Below are positions 225-6,999 of a stretch of DNA of 64,000 bases, in pieces (position 1 is the first letter of the stretch; each line of letters starts with the position of its first letter). The position numbers were made by a program, and so were the translations under genes. Where the stretch lies: the NCBI GenBank assembly GCA_001464575.1, contig LNFE01000244.1, positions 1 to 64,000 on the forward strand. Direction: 5' to 3'. The notes under the pieces were generated by a model that was given only the letters and a program-made list of their open reading frames with translations, was not told the DNA's origin and ran no database searches. The DNA is from Acidobacteria bacterium Ga0077553 (GTDB lineage Bacteria > Acidobacteriota > Terriglobia > Bryobacterales > Bryobacteraceae).

Positions 225-1918
225 ATGCGTGGATCAATTCTTTTGTCCGTTTTGATGGCCCTGCCGCTGGCGGCGCAGGGGCCGGAGATGTATCCGTTGG
301 GACCCGATTCGCAGGTGAAGCCGGGGGTGCCGCAGGGCACGATAACGAAGTACGAGTGGTCGAACTCGAAGATCTTTCCGGGGACGACGCGGGACTACTG
401 GACCTACGTGCCGGCGCAGTACAACTCAAGCAAGCCGGCAGCGACGGGCGCTGGCGCGTGCCGGTGGTGCTAGACAACCTGATCGCGAGCGGCGAACTGC
501 CCCCGATTGTCGGTATCTTCATCAACCCCGGGGTGATGCCGGCAGCGCATGCCAACGCCGAGGCCCGCTACAACCGGAGCTTTGAGTACGACGCGCTGGG
601 CGACCGCTACGCGCGGTTTCTGATCGAGGAGATTCTGCCCGAGGTGGGCAAGAAGCTGAACCTCACGACCGACCCAAATTTGCGCGGGTTGATGGGCTCG
701 TCGTCGGGCGCCATTGCGGCGTTTAACGCGGCGTGGGAGCGGCCGGACCATTTCCGGCGGGTGCTGAGCACGATCGGCACGTTCGTGAACATCCGCGGCG
801 CGCAGGATTTTCCGACGCGGATCCGGAAGTTTGAGCCGAAGCCGCTGCGCGTGTTTCTGCAGGACGGGCGGAACGACAACAACATCTACGCGGGCAGCTG
901 GTGGGTAGCGAACCAGGACATGGCGTCGGCGTTCGAGTGGGCCGGCTATGAGTACACCTTCGTGGTGGGCGAGGAGAAGCACAACAGCATCCACGGGTCG
1001 GCGATTCTGCCGGACGCGATGCGCTGGCTCTGGAAGGATCCGGCGAAGCCGATCAGCAACCGGCTGCGGCCGGGGGACCGGCAGTTTTCGCGGATGATTG
1101 CGGGGGATAGCAAATGGGAGCTGGTGAGCGAGGGCCATCAGTTCACCGAGGGACCGGCTGTGGACCGCGAGGGGAATCTATACTTTTCCGATCCGCGGGC
1201 GAGCAAGATCTTCCGGATGATCGACGGGAAAGTGAGCCTTTTCAAGGAGGACACGGGGAACGCGAACGGGCTGATGTTCGGGCCGGACGGGAAGCTGTAC
1301 GCCTGCGAGAACGGGCGGCGGCGCATTGTGGCCTACGACGTGAAGACGGGCGTGGCGACGCCGGTGGTGACGGATGTGACGTCGAACGACCTAGTCATCA
1401 ACGCCAAGGGGGAGATCTGGTTTACGGACCCGACGGCGAAGAAGGTTTGGTACGTGCGGCCGGGGAGCGAAAAGCGGATGGTGCATGAGGGTTTGGAGTT
1501 TCCGAACGGGATCATGCTGTCGCCGGACCAGACGTTGTTGACGGTGGCCGATAGCCGGAGCAAGTGGGTATGGTCGTTTCAGATTGGGCCGGACGGAGGA
1601 TTGCTGAACGGGCAGCCGTTTTACCGCCTGGAAACGAACGACATGAGCAGCGCGTCGAGCGCGGACGGGATGACGATGGACACCGAGGGGTACCTTTGGG
1701 TAACGACGAACATCGGGTTGCAGATTTGCGACCAGCCGGGGCGCGTGACGGCGATTTTGAATAAGCCGCAGCCGGGGAGTTTGTCGAACGTGGTGTTTGC
1801 CGGGAAGGAGTTGGATACGGTGTACGTGACGGCGGGGGACAAGGTGTTCCGGCGGAAGGTGAACCGGAAGGGGTTGACGCCGTGGTCGCCGGTGAAGCCG
1901 CCGAAGCCGGGGCTGTAA
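225..1918 (+). pseudogene. Esterase (enterochelin esterase-like) / SMP-30 gluconolactonase fusion, frameshifted by an internal deletion
   Basis: The ATG at 225 opens a signal peptide (MRGSILLSVLMALPLAAQG) and an esterase N-terminus reading VPAQYNSSKPAA. The frame then breaks at about 445-455. The homologous sequence resumes one frame over at SDGRWRVPVVLDN and stays open to the TAA at 1918. It includes the nucleophile motif GSSSGA, a conserved H in EEKHNSIHG, and then an SMP-30/gluconolactonase beta-propeller (EGPAVDREGNLYFSDP, NGLMFGPDGKLY, FPNGIMLSPDQ). Homologous esterases normally have about a dozen extra residues (an MVFQDG-type strand plus linker) at the break, so a short out-of-frame deletion fits better than a one-base error. 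The intact protein would be periplasmic or secreted and act on esters and sugar lactones. An assembly error remains possible. Confidence 0.7.
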
Positions 1919-1945: not shown

Positions 1946-1979
1946 TTCCTGGGGCCAGAGCGGCCCCAGGAACGATTTT
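1946..1979 (+). terminator. Intrinsic terminator between convergent genes
   Basis: TTCCTGGGGCC (1946-1956) and GGCCCCAGGAA (1962-1972) form a perfect 11-bp stem with the loop AGAGC, followed by CGATTTT. The T-run lies on the plus strand, after the esterase/SMP-30 pseudogene. It sits just beyond the terminase-like gene stop at 1980-1982. Confidence 0.7.
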
Positions 1980-3392
1980 CTAGCGCTTGGGCAGCAGTAC
2001 TTCCTTCCGGCTCTGGACGAGGAACCACATGGCCAGGGCGCTGGCGAAGACCAGGTCGTCGTGTTCCGGCTGGCGGCCGTCGGAGCGGAAGTGCACCAGT
2101 TCGTGCTCGAAGTCGCCGAAGCCGGGGGCGTCGAGCGGCAGATGGATCAGGTTTCGCTCAAAGGCCGACCGCAGGCGCGTCAGCAGGTCTGGGCGCGGAA
2201 TGCCGGTGTAGCTGTCTTTCAGATCGGACTTCGATAGGCCGCCCGTGATGGTGACCGGGTGGAAGTACACCTTGTCCAGAGCTTTTGAGGCGCGCATCAG
2301 TTCGATCAGCGTCCCTTCCCCGGTGGCATCCATGGCCAAAGTGACTTTGGGTGTGTAGGGTGCATGAGCTTCCTGGCAGCGGCTGAGGATGGTTTTCAGC
2401 CGGGCCGGCAGATCGAAATAGGCGCTGCCGAGCGGCAAGGATTCCGCGTGCAGCAAGTTGATGCGCGGATGCAGTTCGCGGCCCATATCGACGGGATTCT
2501 GCTGGCCTTCAAACCAGTTGAGGGCCAGGACGACGATGGCTGAATGGTCGATGCGCTTGCCGACGTCGACGCCGACGAAGAACTCGGTGGCCGACGGCAG
2601 CGGCTTGCCGCGAACCGGCGGCGGAACGGTGGCCGCGGCGATGAGTTCGCGGTCCAGAAACTGGGTCTTGCTGGCGATGAAGGCGCATTCGTACTCCTGC
2701 CGATAGAGGGCTTCGCCGAGGAACTCGCGTTCGAGGGCCAGGAACTCGGGGGAAATGCGCGGGCACTCCGTGGCCGGGGCGAACCAGACGCTCCAGGCGG
2801 GGGTGGGCTTGGTGCAGATATCGTGGAAGCGGCCGGTTTGGCCATCGGGCGTGGAGAGAACCCACATGGCTCCGTTCGACACGGCGAGCATGGGGGAGAT
2901 CGCCTGGAAGATCGCGTCGTCGACGAAGGCAGCTTCATCGACGATGATGACGGTGACGCTGGCATAGGAGCGGGCGGTGGCCGGTACATCCGAGAGGGCC
3001 ACGAAGCGCGAGCCGTTGGGCAGCACGAGGGAGCGCGGATTGTTGCCGTCGGTTCGATTGCGGATGCCGAGCATTTGCGTGAATTCGCGGATGCGGCCGA
3101 GCAGTTCGCCGGCCTGGCGGCCGACCGGGCAGAAGATGAGGATCAGCGACTTGGGGCGCGTGAGTGCGATATGGAGCGCCTTGGTGGCGGCGATCTGCGT
3201 CTTGCCGAGTTGGCGGCTGGTGCAGAGGGCGATGCGCAGGGCTTCGAGATCGAGCAGCTTGATCTGGAGCGGGTCTGGGGTGAAGCCGAGGGCCTCGGCG
3301 GCCCAGACGGACGCGGCAGGCAGGGGACCAAAGCCGGCGGCGCCGTCGAACGACACGCGACCGGGGGGTGAGTCCAGTTCGAAGAAGAGCAT
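1980..3392 (-). CDS. Orphan phage-terminase-large-subunit-like ATPase/nuclease
   Basis: This 470-residue protein has the two-domain layout of terminase large subunits. The N-terminal ATPase has a deviant Walker A, SRQLGKT (59-65), a Walker B VIIVDEAAF (148-156) and a coupling motif LSTPDG (179-184). The C-terminal RNase-H-fold nuclease shows three acidic clusters: VGVDVGKRIDHSA (273-285), LAMDATGEG (352-360) and HDDLVFA (444-450). In phage these proteins cut and package DNA. Here there is no portal, capsid, protease or small terminase, so packaging is unlikely; the role is unknown. The STGPRTPEGK-type gene lies 112 bp upstream on the same strand, probably co-transcribed. The start is ATG 3392 and the stop is TAG. 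Family assignment is firm; function is inferred only. Confidence 0.8.
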   Translation of the reverse strand: MLFFELDSPPGRVSFDGAAGFGPLPAASVWAAEALGFTPDPLQIKLLDLEALRIALCTSRQLGKTQIAATKALHIALTRPKSLILIFCPVGRQAGELLGRIREFTQMLGIRNRTDGNNPRSLVLPNGSRFVALSDVPATARSYASVTVIIVDEAAFVDDAIFQAISPMLAVSNGAMWVLSTPDGQTGRFHDICTKPTPAWSVWFAPATECPRISPEFLALEREFLGEALYRQEYECAFIASKTQFLDRELIAAATVPPPVRGKPLPSATEFFVGVDVGKRIDHSAIVVLALNWFEGQQNPVDMGRELHPRINLLHAESLPLGSAYFDLPARLKTILSRCQEAHAPYTPKVTLAMDATGEGTLIELMRASKALDKVYFHPVTITGGLSKSDLKDSYTGIPRPDLLTRLRSAFERNLIHLPLDAPGFGDFEHELVHFRSDGRQPEHDDLVFASALAMWFLVQSRKEVLLPKR

Positions 3393-3447
3393 GGGGGTTC
3401 TCTATGGGGTTCAGGTTGCGGTTCGCCAGAGTCCGGGACGCCGGATG

Positions 3448-3655
3448 GCTTCGGTTGGGTTCGTTTGTCGGGTTTCGGTGGGCGGGACCGCTGGTTGCGA
3501 TCGGTTAGGAGCCGCCGCCGGCGGTTCTGGTTTTCGGTTTGGGTTCGGTTTCGGTTTCGGGTTCGGCGCGGAATGGGGGCCGGCGGTTGGGGGCAGCGAT
3601 CGCGAAGCCGAATCCGGCGTGGGCGACGAGCGGCTTCGGTTGGGTTCGTTCGTCG
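3448..3655. repeat. 23-bp direct repeat and TTCGGTT-rich low-complexity tract
   Basis: GCTTCGGTTGGGTTCGTTTG at 3448 recurs at 3633 with one mismatch over 23 bp (3448-3470 and 3633-3655). Between the copies, 3533-3570 is a run of short TTCGGTT-like units that encode the Glu/Pro/Thr/Lys-rich tail of the adjacent protein. One repeat copy lies inside that gene and the other just past its stop at 3505, as expected if slippage or partial duplication remodelled its 3' end. Confidence 0.55.
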
Positions 3656-4362
3656 TGGTTTTGTGGGGTTTCGATGGGGGCCTCTTCTGTGTTTTGAACG
3701 GGTTCCGGGTTTGAGGCGGGTGGGATTTCATCGGGTTCCGGTTGGGGTTTCGGAGCGGTGGTGTAGACCTTCTGCGGGACGCTCCGTTCGGGGTCGAAGG
3801 CCATGGGCGGTCCGGCGATGGGATCGAGAATGCGCAGTTGGCGGAGTTCGCGGTAGGCCGCGGCGATGCTGCGTTCGGCGGCGGCCATGTCGTGGCGGAG
3901 CGGGGGGAATCCGCCGTCGGGGGCAGTGCAATTTTTGTAGGCGAAGCCGAGGGCGACGGCGCCGCTGCATTCGGGCAGGGCTTGGTGCTTGATTTTATGG
4001 CCGACGGTTTGGAACTGATCTTCGAGCAGGACGAGGCGGATGCAGCGGAGGCGGCGGATCTCCCATTGGGCCGCGGCGACGCGATGGACGATTTCGAGTT
4101 CGACTTCGTCGCGCGGGGCGAGTTTGGCGACGAGGGCTTCGACGGAGCGGACGTATTCGGCGACGGGTTCGCCGGGGAGGAGGACGGTGTTGACTTTGGC
4201 GGAGTAGTCGATGATTTGGGCGCGACGGCCGTGTTTAGTGGAGTTGTGGCGGGCGCGGGCTTTGCCTTCGGGGGTGCGGGGGCCGGTGCTTTTCTGGGCG
4301 TTGGCGCGATTGGTGGCGGCGCGTTTGGCCTTTTTCTCTTCGGGGGTGAGGGTGCTGGGCAT
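3505..4362 (-). CDS. STGPRTPEGK-motif protein, partner of terminase-like gene
   Basis: This 285-residue protein of unknown function has an Arg/Lys-rich N-terminus with the signature STGPRTPEGKARARHN (25-40) followed by STKHG. From memory, this signature defines a very abundant, uncharacterised family in Acidobacteriota and Planctomycetes. The middle (about 55-185) is predicted helical with many Arg and Glu residues. The last 90 residues are low-complexity Pro/Glu/Lys/Thr, encoded by short tandem repeats. ATG 4362 is preferred over an upstream TTG (4380) because GGAG lies 7 nt before it. The gene precedes the terminase-like gene on the same strand. The basic motif could bind nucleic acid, which would fit a small-terminase-like or adaptor role, but this is speculation. 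Confidence 0.65.
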   Translation of the reverse strand: MPSTLTPEEKKAKRAATNRANAQKSTGPRTPEGKARARHNSTKHGRRAQIIDYSAKVNTVLLPGEPVAEYVRSVEALVAKLAPRDEVELEIVHRVAAAQWEIRRLRCIRLVLLEDQFQTVGHKIKHQALPECSGAVALGFAYKNCTAPDGGFPPLRHDMAAAERSIAAAYRELRQLRILDPIAGPPMAFDPERSVPQKVYTTAPKPQPEPDEIPPASNPEPVQNTEEAPIETPQNHDERTQPKPLVAHAGFGFAIAAPNRRPPFRAEPETETEPKPKTRTAGGGS

Positions 4363-4391
4363 GGGGTGTCTCCTGGGCAAAATGAGGGCGT

Positions 4392-4429
4392 AAAAAGGCG
4401 AACGCCCCGCCGGGAAGACGGGGCGTTCG
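4392..4429 (-). terminator. Terminator-like hairpin in the leader of the STGPRTPEGK gene
   Basis: On the minus strand CGAACGCCCCG (4429-4419) pairs perfectly with CGGGGCGTTCG (4409-4399) over a 9-nt loop and is followed by CCTTTTT. It ends about 30 nt before the ATG at 4362. No minus-strand gene lies upstream that needs termination, so it may be an attenuator or the end of a small transcript. Confidence 0.5.
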
Positions 4430-4787
4430 AAAGGGCGCCAGACTCACTTTTGATTTGAACGTAGCAGGCTAGGAGGCGAAAAATGGATCGGCGGGGGGAG
4501 CAGAAACGGCTGCAAGCTATTGCAGGGATAGGGACTTAAAAATATTCGAATTGGTCGTCAACGACTTCGGCGGAGTGGGCAAGTTTGGGCAGTGCGGCAG
4601 TTAATTAATTGAAAGCAAATGAGTTGTTCGCCCGGGAGGGGCTCGATGCCCCGAATGGCCGGGCGGTGGCGACCCGAAGGGGCAATTGGCGGATTGACGA
4701 TGGCCGGACGTCCGTCTTACTAGGCGGTGTCGCTAGGTGCGGGACACGCTAGTTCTGTGCCGCCATCCTCTCGGCCACCATCCTTTG
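4430..4787. other. Intergenic region without a recognisable gene
   Basis: No open frame with coding character was found here. The only structure seen is a short stem-loop GGGGC-TCGAT-GCCCC (4638-4652), whose core matches the one at 8-18. The stretch around 4533-4625 is AT-richer than its surroundings and could hold promoters for the divergent neighbours, but no convincing -35/-10 pair was identified. Confidence 0.4.
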
Positions 4788-4813: not shown

Positions 4814-5089
4814 ATGCCGCTTGGTAACCCATCGCCCAAACTCGCTATCACTGTAGACCCGGAGACGCACAAAGACGTGAAGGCCGCGGCGAACCGCGAA
4901 GGCTTGAGTGTTTCGGCGTGGATGACGATCGCGGCGCGGGAGGCGCTGCAGCGCCGGGCCGGATTGGCGGCGGTGGCGCAGTGGGAGAAGCAGCACGGGG
5001 CGTTTACGGAAGCGGAGATGGAAGAGGCCCGCCGGAGCGTGGGGGCGCAACTTCGCCGCGCTGCGCCGAGGACGCGCCGTTCCGCATGA
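4814..5089 (+). CDS. Type II antitoxin, RHH-like (VapB-type)
   Basis: This 91-residue protein begins with a predicted ribbon (KLAITVDPETHKDVKAAA) and helices (EGLSVSAWMTIAAREAL), as in ribbon-helix-helix antitoxins. A conserved-looking segment follows (WEKQHGAFTEAEMEEARR), probably the toxin-binding arm. The ATG at 4814 has AGGA 7 nt upstream. The stop TGA (5087-5089) overlaps the toxin start in an ATGA junction, so the pair is translationally coupled. It is expected to bind the PIN toxin and repress the operon at the palindrome directly upstream. Confidence 0.75.
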   Translation: MPLGNPSPKLAITVDPETHKDVKAAANREGLSVSAWMTIAAREALQRRAGLAAVAQWEKQHGAFTEAEMEEARRSVGAQLRRAAPRTRRSA

Positions 5090-5466
5090 GCGCCTTTGTT
5101 TACGACTCCGCCGTGCTGGTGGCGGCGGACCGCAACGAACGGAGGACGTGGGCCGAACACAAGGCCCGGTTGGAGTTCGGAGCGATTCCGGTGGTTCCTG
5201 CGCCGGTAGTCGCCCAAGTGAGCCGCTCCCCGCAGCAGGCCCAACTCCGCCGCTTTCTCGCCGGCTGCCGAGTGGTGGCGCTCGACGAGCGCGATGCGCA
5301 CACGGCCGGCCGCTTGCTGGGCAAGACGTCCACCACCGATGTGGTGGATGCGGTGGTGGTAACGGTTGCCTTGGCAGAGAAAGCGATCATCGTGACGGGC
5401 GACCCAGCCGATATCGAGCGACTGGTGAGCGCGTCCGGACAGCAGGCCGTGGTGGTGAGCGCTTAA
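5086..5466 (+). CDS. PIN-domain toxin (VapC-like ribonuclease)
   Basis: This 126-residue PIN-fold protein starts at ATG 5086 in a 4-nt overlap with the antitoxin. Acidic residues typical of the metal site are D7 (VYDSAV), D85 and D88 (TTDVVDAV) and D106 (TGDPAD). The usual PIN glutamate in the second motif is replaced by Q44 (VVAQVSR). I recall related actinobacterial PIN toxins with Q here, so it may be a subfamily trait rather than inactivation. VapC toxins usually cleave specific tRNA or rRNA sites; the target here is not known. Confidence 0.75.
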   Translation: MSAFVYDSAVLVAADRNERRTWAEHKARLEFGAIPVVPAPVVAQVSRSPQQAQLRRFLAGCRVVALDERDAHTAGRLLGKTSTTDVVDAVVVTVALAEKAIIVTGDPADIERLVSASGQQAVVVSA

Positions 5467-5541
5467 TCGTCCCGCCGCTGTGCGCTTGCGAGTTTGTTGG
5501 GGTCCGTACTGGACGGGACGAGCAGCGGCCGACAGGGGAGT

Positions 5542-5799
5542 GTGGTCCTGGACTTACCCAAAGGGCTAACGTCGGCATGCGGCGAACCGGGAGCCGATCT
5601 GTCGCAGACGCTGCTTGAGAAGTTAGCCGTTGCAGCTTACCGGGAGAATAAAGTGTCCACGCGTCAGCTTCGACGGATCCTGGGATTCGAGACCCAGTAC
5701 GAACTCGATGGTTTCTTGAAGGCCCAGCAGGTCTGGCTCGAGTATTGGGAGCAAGACCTTGCCCGCGATCGAAGGACCCATGAGCATTTCGGGATCTGA
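5542..5799 (+). CDS. Orphan UPF0175 family antitoxin
   Basis: The frame encodes VVLDLPKGL, then a helical region (LSQTLLEKLAVAAYRENKVS) and the family signature RRILGFETQYELDGFLKAQQ. UPF0175 proteins are antitoxins usually paired with a DUF3368 PIN toxin. Neither the region before nor after encodes one, so this copy looks orphaned. The start is uncertain: GTG 5542 gives a typical 85-residue protein but has a crowded ribosome site; TTG 5494 would add 16 residues. It lies 75 bp after the PIN toxin gene on the same strand. Confidence 0.6.
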   Translation: MVLDLPKGLTSACGEPGADLSQTLLEKLAVAAYRENKVSTRQLRRILGFETQYELDGFLKAQQVWLEYWEQDLARDRRTHEHFGI

Positions 5800-5902
5800 C
5801 GTGGCTGCTGGAGCGAAGAAGCCGGGCCTTCGCCGTTCCTTTGGGGCAGGATCCTGCCGGTAGGCGTTCGACGGCAGAGCGGGAGAGCTGACGAAATACG
5901 AA

Positions 5903-6097
5903 GTGATTCTTTACTGGAGCTGGGAAGACGATGCCTTCATCGCGGAGGTACCGGAGTTACCTGGTTTTGCCGCAGACGGGGCTACCCGGCAGGAGGCGCT
6001 TGCCAAGGTGGGTATGGTGATGGGCGAATGGATCGAAACGGCGAAAGAACGGGGCCGCGAGATTCCTGAGCCGAAGGGCCGTTTGTTCTTCGCATAG
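5903..6097 (+). CDS. HicB-like antitoxin, solitary
   Basis: The protein matches the HicB fold: a short strand (VILYWSWEDDAFIAEVPE), the LPGFAADG turn, a helix (ATRQEALAKVGMVMGEWIE) and the C-terminal IPEPKGRLFFA. Homologs start MKYEVI; here the equivalent codons read ACG AAA TAC GAA GTG (5891-5905). The expected ATG is therefore ACG, and GTG 5903 is the nearest usable start, trimming four residues. GGGAG (5881-5885) lies correctly spaced for the ACG position. No HicA toxin is adjacent. The stop is TAG. Confidence 0.6.
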   Translation: MILYWSWEDDAFIAEVPELPGFAADGATRQEALAKVGMVMGEWIETAKERGREIPEPKGRLFFA

Positions 6098-6123
6098 CGG
6101 GCGGCGGCGGCAGCGCGGCGGTG

Positions 6124-6999
6124 CTAGCTTCCTGGGGTTTTCGTTGCTCCCTCGGTGCGGGCATTCATGCCGAAATCGCGCTCGACGGAATCGTACCAGG
6201 CTGCATCCTCCTGGGCGCTCCAGTCGACCCATTGCTCGTCGCTCTGGCCGCTTCGCCAAGCGAGAAAGGGCTCGGCATCGGGACCGGAGGGATGGCGCAG
6301 TTTCCAAGTTCCGCTCTCGATAATGTGGCGGATCACCGCGGCGGTGACTTCGGGCGGGACCGGGTTGGCGAGCGCCGCGCGGAAGAGGCCGGACATCCGG
6401 GCGGTGTGCGGGTACAGGGACTCTTCGGGGTTGGTGATCGCCTGCGCCATGCGGGTGTTCTGAATCCCCGGTTCCACAATCGCGACCCGGATGCCGAAGG
6501 ATTTCACTTCGCCCGCCAACGCTTCGCTGATCGCTTCCACCGCGAACTTGGAGGCGCTGTAGGCACCCAGCGGCGAATTGGAGATGCGGCCAGCGACCGA
6601 GGAGATGTTGACGATACAGCCGCTGCGCCGCTCCCGCATTTGCGGCAGGACCGCCTGGATGCAGCGCACCGTACCGAGGTAGTTCGTATTCATGACCTGG
6701 GCGACGGCCTCGATCGGCAGTTCCTCCACCGAGCCATGCACCTCGATGCCGGCGTTGTTGACCAGCACATCGATGGGCGATTCGATGGCCGCGAAGCAGG
6801 CGCGGACGGACTCGTCGGAATCGACATCGAGGGTGCGGATTTCGATGGGAAGATTCTCCGCGGCGGCGGTCTCTGCGAGTCGGGGAGCGCCAGCCGGATT
6901 GCGCATGGTGGCGATGACGCGGTGTCCCGCGCGTGCGAGTTCGAGTGCGGTGGCCAGCCCGATGCCGGTGCTACAGCCGGTGATCAAAACGGTGCCCAT
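6124..6999 (-). CDS. Short-chain dehydrogenase/reductase (SDR)
   Basis: This 291-residue classical SDR has the nucleotide-binding motif TGCSTGIG (7-14), NNAG, the catalytic serine region IVNISSVAG and YSASK. It is an NAD(P)-dependent oxidoreductase of unknown substrate. The C-terminal 60 residues (ending in FGMNARTEGATKTPGS) extend beyond the core fold. ATG 6999 is chosen because the Rossmann motif starts at residue 5. It is divergent from the NTF2-like gene, with 94 bp between starts. Confidence 0.8.
   Translation of the reverse strand: MGTVLITGCSTGIGLATALELARAGHRVIATMRNPAGAPRLAETAAAENLPIEIRTLDVDSDESVRACFAAIESPIDVLVNNAGIEVHGSVEELPIEAVAQVMNTNYLGTVRCIQAVLPQMRERRSGCIVNISSVAGRISNSPLGAYSASKFAVEAISEALAGEVKSFGIRVAIVEPGIQNTRMAQAITNPEESLYPHTARMSGLFRAALANPVPPEVTAAVIRHIIESGTWKLRHPSGPDAEPFLAWRSGQSDEQWVDWSAQEDAAWYDSVERDFGMNARTEGATKTPGS

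Follow-up and report, generated by a model that had tools for sequence, protein, structure and literature searches.

The terminase-like gene pair near the start of the window (the whole 64,000-nucleotide stretch analyzed here, from Acidobacteria bacterium Ga0077553) is one copy of a high-copy family dispersed in one genus, not a stray phage leftover. Terminases are the packaging motors of tailed phages. Here, we observe a gene for a large-subunit-like protein (TerL) directly preceded by a gene for a basic protein with the motif STGPRTPEGK (SG), with a terminator-like hairpin in the leader and, farther upstream, an oriented palindrome that is new relative to the first-pass annotation of this DNA, which missed it. 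These features suggest a selfish or domesticated DNA-cutting element that has not been described previously. We give roughly even chances to a dispersed chromosomal terminase-based element with the order palindrome, promoter, leader terminator hairpin, SG, and TerL, which would be selfish or semi-domesticated and not a prophage remnant. The coordinates of its parts are collected in Table 1.

Table 1. Features of the SG-TerL module and its borders (window positions)
Feature	Position	Strand	Remarks
Second palindrome, truncated by contig end	1..33	-	downstream of module, same orientation
Terminator-like hairpin	1946..1972		between convergent esterase gene and TerL; from sequence
TerL-like gene	1980..3392	-	470 aa; ATPase domain plus RNase-H-fold nuclease domain
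TerL RNase-H-fold nuclease domain	2007-2585	-	HMM match
TerL ATPase domain	2640-3311	-	HMM match
SG protein	3505..4362	-	285 aa, basic, mostly helical; carries KSTGPRTPEGK; small-terminase-subunit position
Leader hairpin CGAACGCCCCG-TCTTCCCGG-CGGGGCGTTCG then CCTTTTTA	4399..4429	-	attenuator-like, between promoter and SG start
Extended -10-like element TGCTACGTT	4458..4466	-	upstream of hairpin; alignment inspection
39-nt oriented palindrome, loop ATCGA	4627..4665	-	265 bp upstream of SG start codon; 5' boundary of duplicated unit

By sequence and predicted fold, the window protein is a large terminase subunit, as had been claimed from its ATPase and nuclease motifs. It matches Pfam Terminase_6N and PHROG 2 (terminase large subunit, 1.2e-37), and its PDB matches are T4 gp17 and P74-26 TerL. 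Among 14 aligned TerL paralogs, the Walker A (SRQLGKT) and Walker B (DEA) motifs of the terminase-type ATPase, as well as the acidic residues of the RNase-H-fold nuclease (aspartates in GVDVGK, AMDATG, and HDD), are invariant at catalytic positions. In its predicted fold, one paralog matches large terminases, among them T4 gp17. TM-scores over the whole chain are modest, presumably reflecting a different packing of the two domains; taken on its own, the ATPase domain superposes on P74-26 TerL at about 3 Å.

The upstream partner had been described as a basic protein with an uncharacterized signature, and this description stands: KSTGPRTPEGK is present, searches of Pfam, PHROG, NCBIfam, and PADLOC returned no significant family, and no paper on the STGPRTPEGK motif was found in the literature collection searched. 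The fold search gave no match and no recognizable DNA-binding fold, and neither family nor structure searches found similarity to small terminase subunits (TerS) in sequence or fold. In several outgroup loci, by inspection, an HTH or zinc-ribbon TerS-like ORF is found where SG would be, and SG therefore occupies the small-terminase position. This gene position and the fusion of SG and ATPase into a single ORF at three loci (L101, L117, and L119) are the two observations that support the earlier label of SG as an adaptor. No conclusion draws on one alignment in which the L119 row was out of frame.

The module had also been called an orphan, which fails, since its own genome contains 11 TerL matches at nine loci and 23 to 24 SG matches, i.e., 23 SG genes. 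The genus, placed near “Ca. Sulfopaludibacter” (Bryobacterales, Acidobacteriota), displays TerL matches in all 19 genomes searched (3 to 28 per genome) and 14 to 60 SG matches in each of nine further genomes searched, and one genome of the same family but outside the genus has 3 SG matches. TerL relatives are sparse outside the family. Wherever a genus locus extends 1.3 kb or more upstream of the ATPase domain (42/42), the gene immediately before TerL, on the same strand, is SG. Among named genomes, SG was found at 35 of 50 strong TerL matches, with most of the others apparently belonging to different genera, and the ATPase tree contains several deep SG-bearing lineages. TerL is a single ORF in some subfamilies and is split into two ORFs in others, and in many places SG occurs alone, without TerL. 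The proposed three-part unit of hairpin, SG, and TerL is thus upheld by constant adjacency, fusions, and a hairpin in many divergent paralogs, but as a high-copy family rather than a single unit, with solo SG common and the hairpin missing in some subfamilies.

Several individual loci depart from the usual architecture. SG lies on the strand opposite to the ATPase gene at L203 (Verrucomicrobiales SJ352) and L192. Four loci from other Acidobacteriota families (L123, L124, L126, and L140) carry, after the ATPase domain, a tandem series of two or three divergent genes for nuclease domains, and at L110, L109, L114, and L115 the ATPase and nuclease genes are separated by gaps of about 0.3 to 2 kb, perhaps representing inserted sequence.

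The reported 11-bp hairpin with a U-run in the SG leader is indeed present; its stem pairs perfectly and leads into CCTTTTTA, and the distance to the SG ATG is 37 nt. Alignment inspection shows that the TGCTA core of the -10-like element recurs in many paralogs, and the usual leader order is a TGCTA-type extended -10, about 30 nt, a hairpin with a T-run, a ribosome site, and the ATG. Counting those within 110 nt of the start codon, which misses a few longer hairpins seen by eye, terminator-like hairpins occur in 17/43 SG leaders versus 43/422 control ORFs (p = 2.8e-6) and 36/860 shuffled sequences. The C195, C130, C125, and C50 subfamilies have no leader hairpin. An Rfam search returned nothing above threshold.

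Both significant palindrome sites in the window flank the SG-TerL module. The 13-mer GGGCATCGAGCCC occurs 11 times in 6.45 Mb (reversed control, 0), with seven of these sites at SG/TerL loci. A covariance model matched 17 sites in the window genome, 34 in G008, and 37 in G017, including some sites counted on both strands. Palindrome clusters were located within 2 kb of a module gene in 9/14 cases in the window genome (0.24 expected; p 2e-13), 3/11 in G008 (p 1e-3), and 11/18 in G017 (p 1e-13). The orientation of the palindrome equaled the direction of the gene at all 41 nearby sites found with this model. As some of the sites used to build the model were themselves module-associated, we also used the exact 13-mer in G005 and G011, where 7/10 and 5/15 clusters, respectively, were near module genes and 12/12 sites were in gene orientation (one G005 site had gone into the model). 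For the five genomes together, 53/53 nearby sites are oriented as the gene, representing fewer than 53 independent events since sites inside one tandem array are not independent. Upstream palindromes mostly lie 171 to 351 bp before the SG domain. The loop ATCGA is invariant while the stem varies, which is partly by construction, as sites were found by their core. Some palindromes are not near any present SG/TerL gene, and the palindrome is nearly absent in several SG-rich members of the genus (e.g., G003, G014, and G018). We consider it a candidate DNA site for SG.

In G017, window-type SG is present in several copies, mostly 88 to 97% identical, with homology extending from the palindrome to the SG stop codon and with unrelated flanks. 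These near-identical units of palindrome, leader, and SG have therefore been duplicated recently. Other SG subfamilies display a similar unit, from the promoter region to the SG 3' end or within it. The unit has sharp 5' and 3' borders, as far as copies cut by contig ends permit them to be read. Neither a target-site duplication nor a clean empty site was found (L343 and L344), flanks being conserved on one side only. In G002, SG and ATPase appear to have moved together. At contig ends in G000 and G017, paired TerL copies share about 95% identity in the visible C-terminal portion, up to about the stop codon, beyond which they diverge; with their different flanks, this suggests gene conversion or recent duplication. 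The module is present beside the orthologous esterase gene in G008 and G017 and absent beside it in G005, G009, G011, G015, and G016. This esterase ORF (window 356-1918), which combines esterase and SMP-30/gluconolactonase domains, is kept across the genus. Two further arrangements were seen. At L085 (G017:C19), positions 4890-5700 hold a unit of about 162 bp repeated five times in tandem, in which the final portion of the TerL gene is joined to the palindrome, and at L329 (G000:C242), positions 5700-6200 hold two tandem SG 3' ends lacking the remainder of the gene, with a palindrome after them; the orthologous place in G017 holds a full SG.

Many TerL loci are old and lie at conserved sites in several species, and movement must therefore be rare for TerL copies. 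Orthologous sites are shared over 11 kb at 85 to 90% DNA identity, as at C130, G008:C33, and G017:C5. The dN/dS values of orthologs range from 0.03 to 0.36 and are mostly <0.25, and by this sequence measure the orthologs are under purifying selection.

The neighborhood is that of host genes. At 11 scanned loci the flanks are mostly ordinary metabolic genes, and PHROG scans of neighboring proteins listed no capsid, portal, or tail families, either in the full lists of six loci (E <= 1e-8) or among the 25 commonest of the 90 families matched by a set of 117 neighbor proteins. Ten window genes, checked singly against phage families, likewise yielded no structural family up to 24 kb on a contig that starts at window base 1, in line with the earlier claim that no other phage gene is nearby. 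A surrounding prophage module (capsid, portal, tail, integrase) was not found at these loci, with one integrase-like match only. We reject an orphan prophage remnant, given the host genes around the pair and its recurrence at many sites. Adjoining the module, window positions 4814-5466 and 5903-6094 hold a ribbon-helix-helix gene, next a PIN-like ORF that has no match in Pfam, and a HicB-like gene; in G017, a solo SG (L343) is flanked by comparable sequence (72% DNA identity).

Under the element reading, SG would bind the oriented palindrome close to the SG gene, in the way that small terminases recognize pac/cos, and would load the TerL motor-nuclease, whose intact catalytic residues and terminase fold would allow DNA to be cut at the palindrome. 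Repair against other copies, or re-insertion, might then spread the palindrome-leader-SG unit with or without TerL, and the same step might convert existing copies. The duplications with sharp borders are observed; the element's own cutting is the cause that we infer for them. Since solo SG units encode no nuclease, TerL would have to act on them in trans. The leader terminator, conserved in position, may hold expression low. More tentatively, and with the balance somewhat against it, the family could represent a class of mobile elements in which a terminase and a TerS-like adaptor act on their own oriented palindrome and copy within the chromosome, with SG-only and palindrome-only units as nonautonomous derivatives. 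Counting against the element model are the missing target-site duplication, the old TerL loci, the lack of a recognizable DNA-binding fold in SG, the subfamilies without hairpin, the palindromes away from genes, and the SG-rich genomes poor in palindromes.

Strong purifying selection, together with persistence at orthologous positions across several species, would also be expected if the pairs were kept by the host as cellular DNA-processing or anti-phage nucleases, with SG sensing a feature or packaging site of incoming DNA, TerL degrading or jamming that DNA, and the palindrome serving as a regulatory or self-marking site. The many divergent paralogs per genome, resembling immune repertoires, and the leader terminators, which suggest tight expression control, point the same way. 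We nevertheless consider host domestication unlikely, given that no PADLOC model was matched, no recurrent defense partner was listed among the mostly metabolic flanks of the 11 scanned loci, SG units multiply without TerL, and an oriented palindrome at unit borders better fits a mobile unit.

That the palindrome and hairpin are passive, i.e., a terminator or mRNA-end structure copied by ordinary recombination with SG-TerL uninvolved in the spread, would account for the tandem palindromes that follow TerL together with copies of its 3' end, and for new copies in rearrangement-prone regions. It appears improbable in view of the strict orientation of the sites, an unpaired loop that is invariant while the stem varies (partly by construction), and a fixed place ahead of the promoter, where it would be useless as a terminator for the same gene. 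We find it equally hard to credit that the pairs are decayed prophages or leftovers of integrated plasmid-type satellites with a split terminase, even though the closest relatives outside the genus include satellite-like plasmids with a primase or integrase and a split terminase, and some genus copies are split likewise. Remnants would not hold dN/dS of 0.03 to 0.36 at several loci or keep a constant SG-TerL pair at 42/42 loci. The genus copies sit among host genes, with no named capsid, portal, or tail family listed, and for SG a tblastn search of 50,697 phage records returned nothing, while plasmids gave a single weak match, to a plasmid without terminase. On that plasmid (L312, Picosynechococcus PCC 8807), the SG-motif protein follows a primase gene.

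A high-copy, selected, virus-free chromosomal terminase family with a dedicated partner and an oriented DNA signal would mean that the packaging nuclease has been turned to another use, either in mobile elements of a new class or in DNA processing. In addition, when “terminase” genes serve as prophage markers, as surveys of Acidobacteria have used them (e.g., PMC5900883), phage numbers in this group can come out too high. The Solibacter genome paper leaves terminases unmentioned (PMC3174227).

Among known systems, related TerL proteins, split into ATPase and nuclease genes, are found on Salinibacter ruber pSR11 and pSR14 and on 16-kb plasmids of Streptomyces virginiae. Unlike the modules described here, these plasmids carry replication genes (primase) and in some cases partition or integrase genes, those of Salinibacter also have tape-measure-like genes, and SG was not detected in these satellite-like plasmids. 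Both Salinibacter plasmids (L308, pSR14; L309, pSR11) are small, combine a primase, a split terminase, and a tape-measure-like protein, and resemble phage satellites. The module shares with the phage TerS/TerL system (T4 gp17/P74-26 type) the ATPase and nuclease motifs and fold, two adjacent genes with the small partner first, and a possible cognate site near the genes. However, the genus family is chromosomal, with many copies per genome and no named head or tail genes found nearby, and SG is often solo and has no similarity to any TerS family or searched structure. REP/RAYT systems resemble it in that a protein gene family is tied to short palindromes that form arrays, are dispersed, and vary between species. 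In contrast to these, SG-TerL units contain only the SG and TerL ORFs without an HUH tyrosine transposase, and searches of Pfam, PHROG, and NCBIfam gave no transposase match for either protein. The REPs on either side of a RAYT gene are inverted (PMC2817692), whereas the SG-TerL palindromes are always direct with the gene, and while REPs reach more than a hundred copies, SG-TerL palindromes number in the tens.
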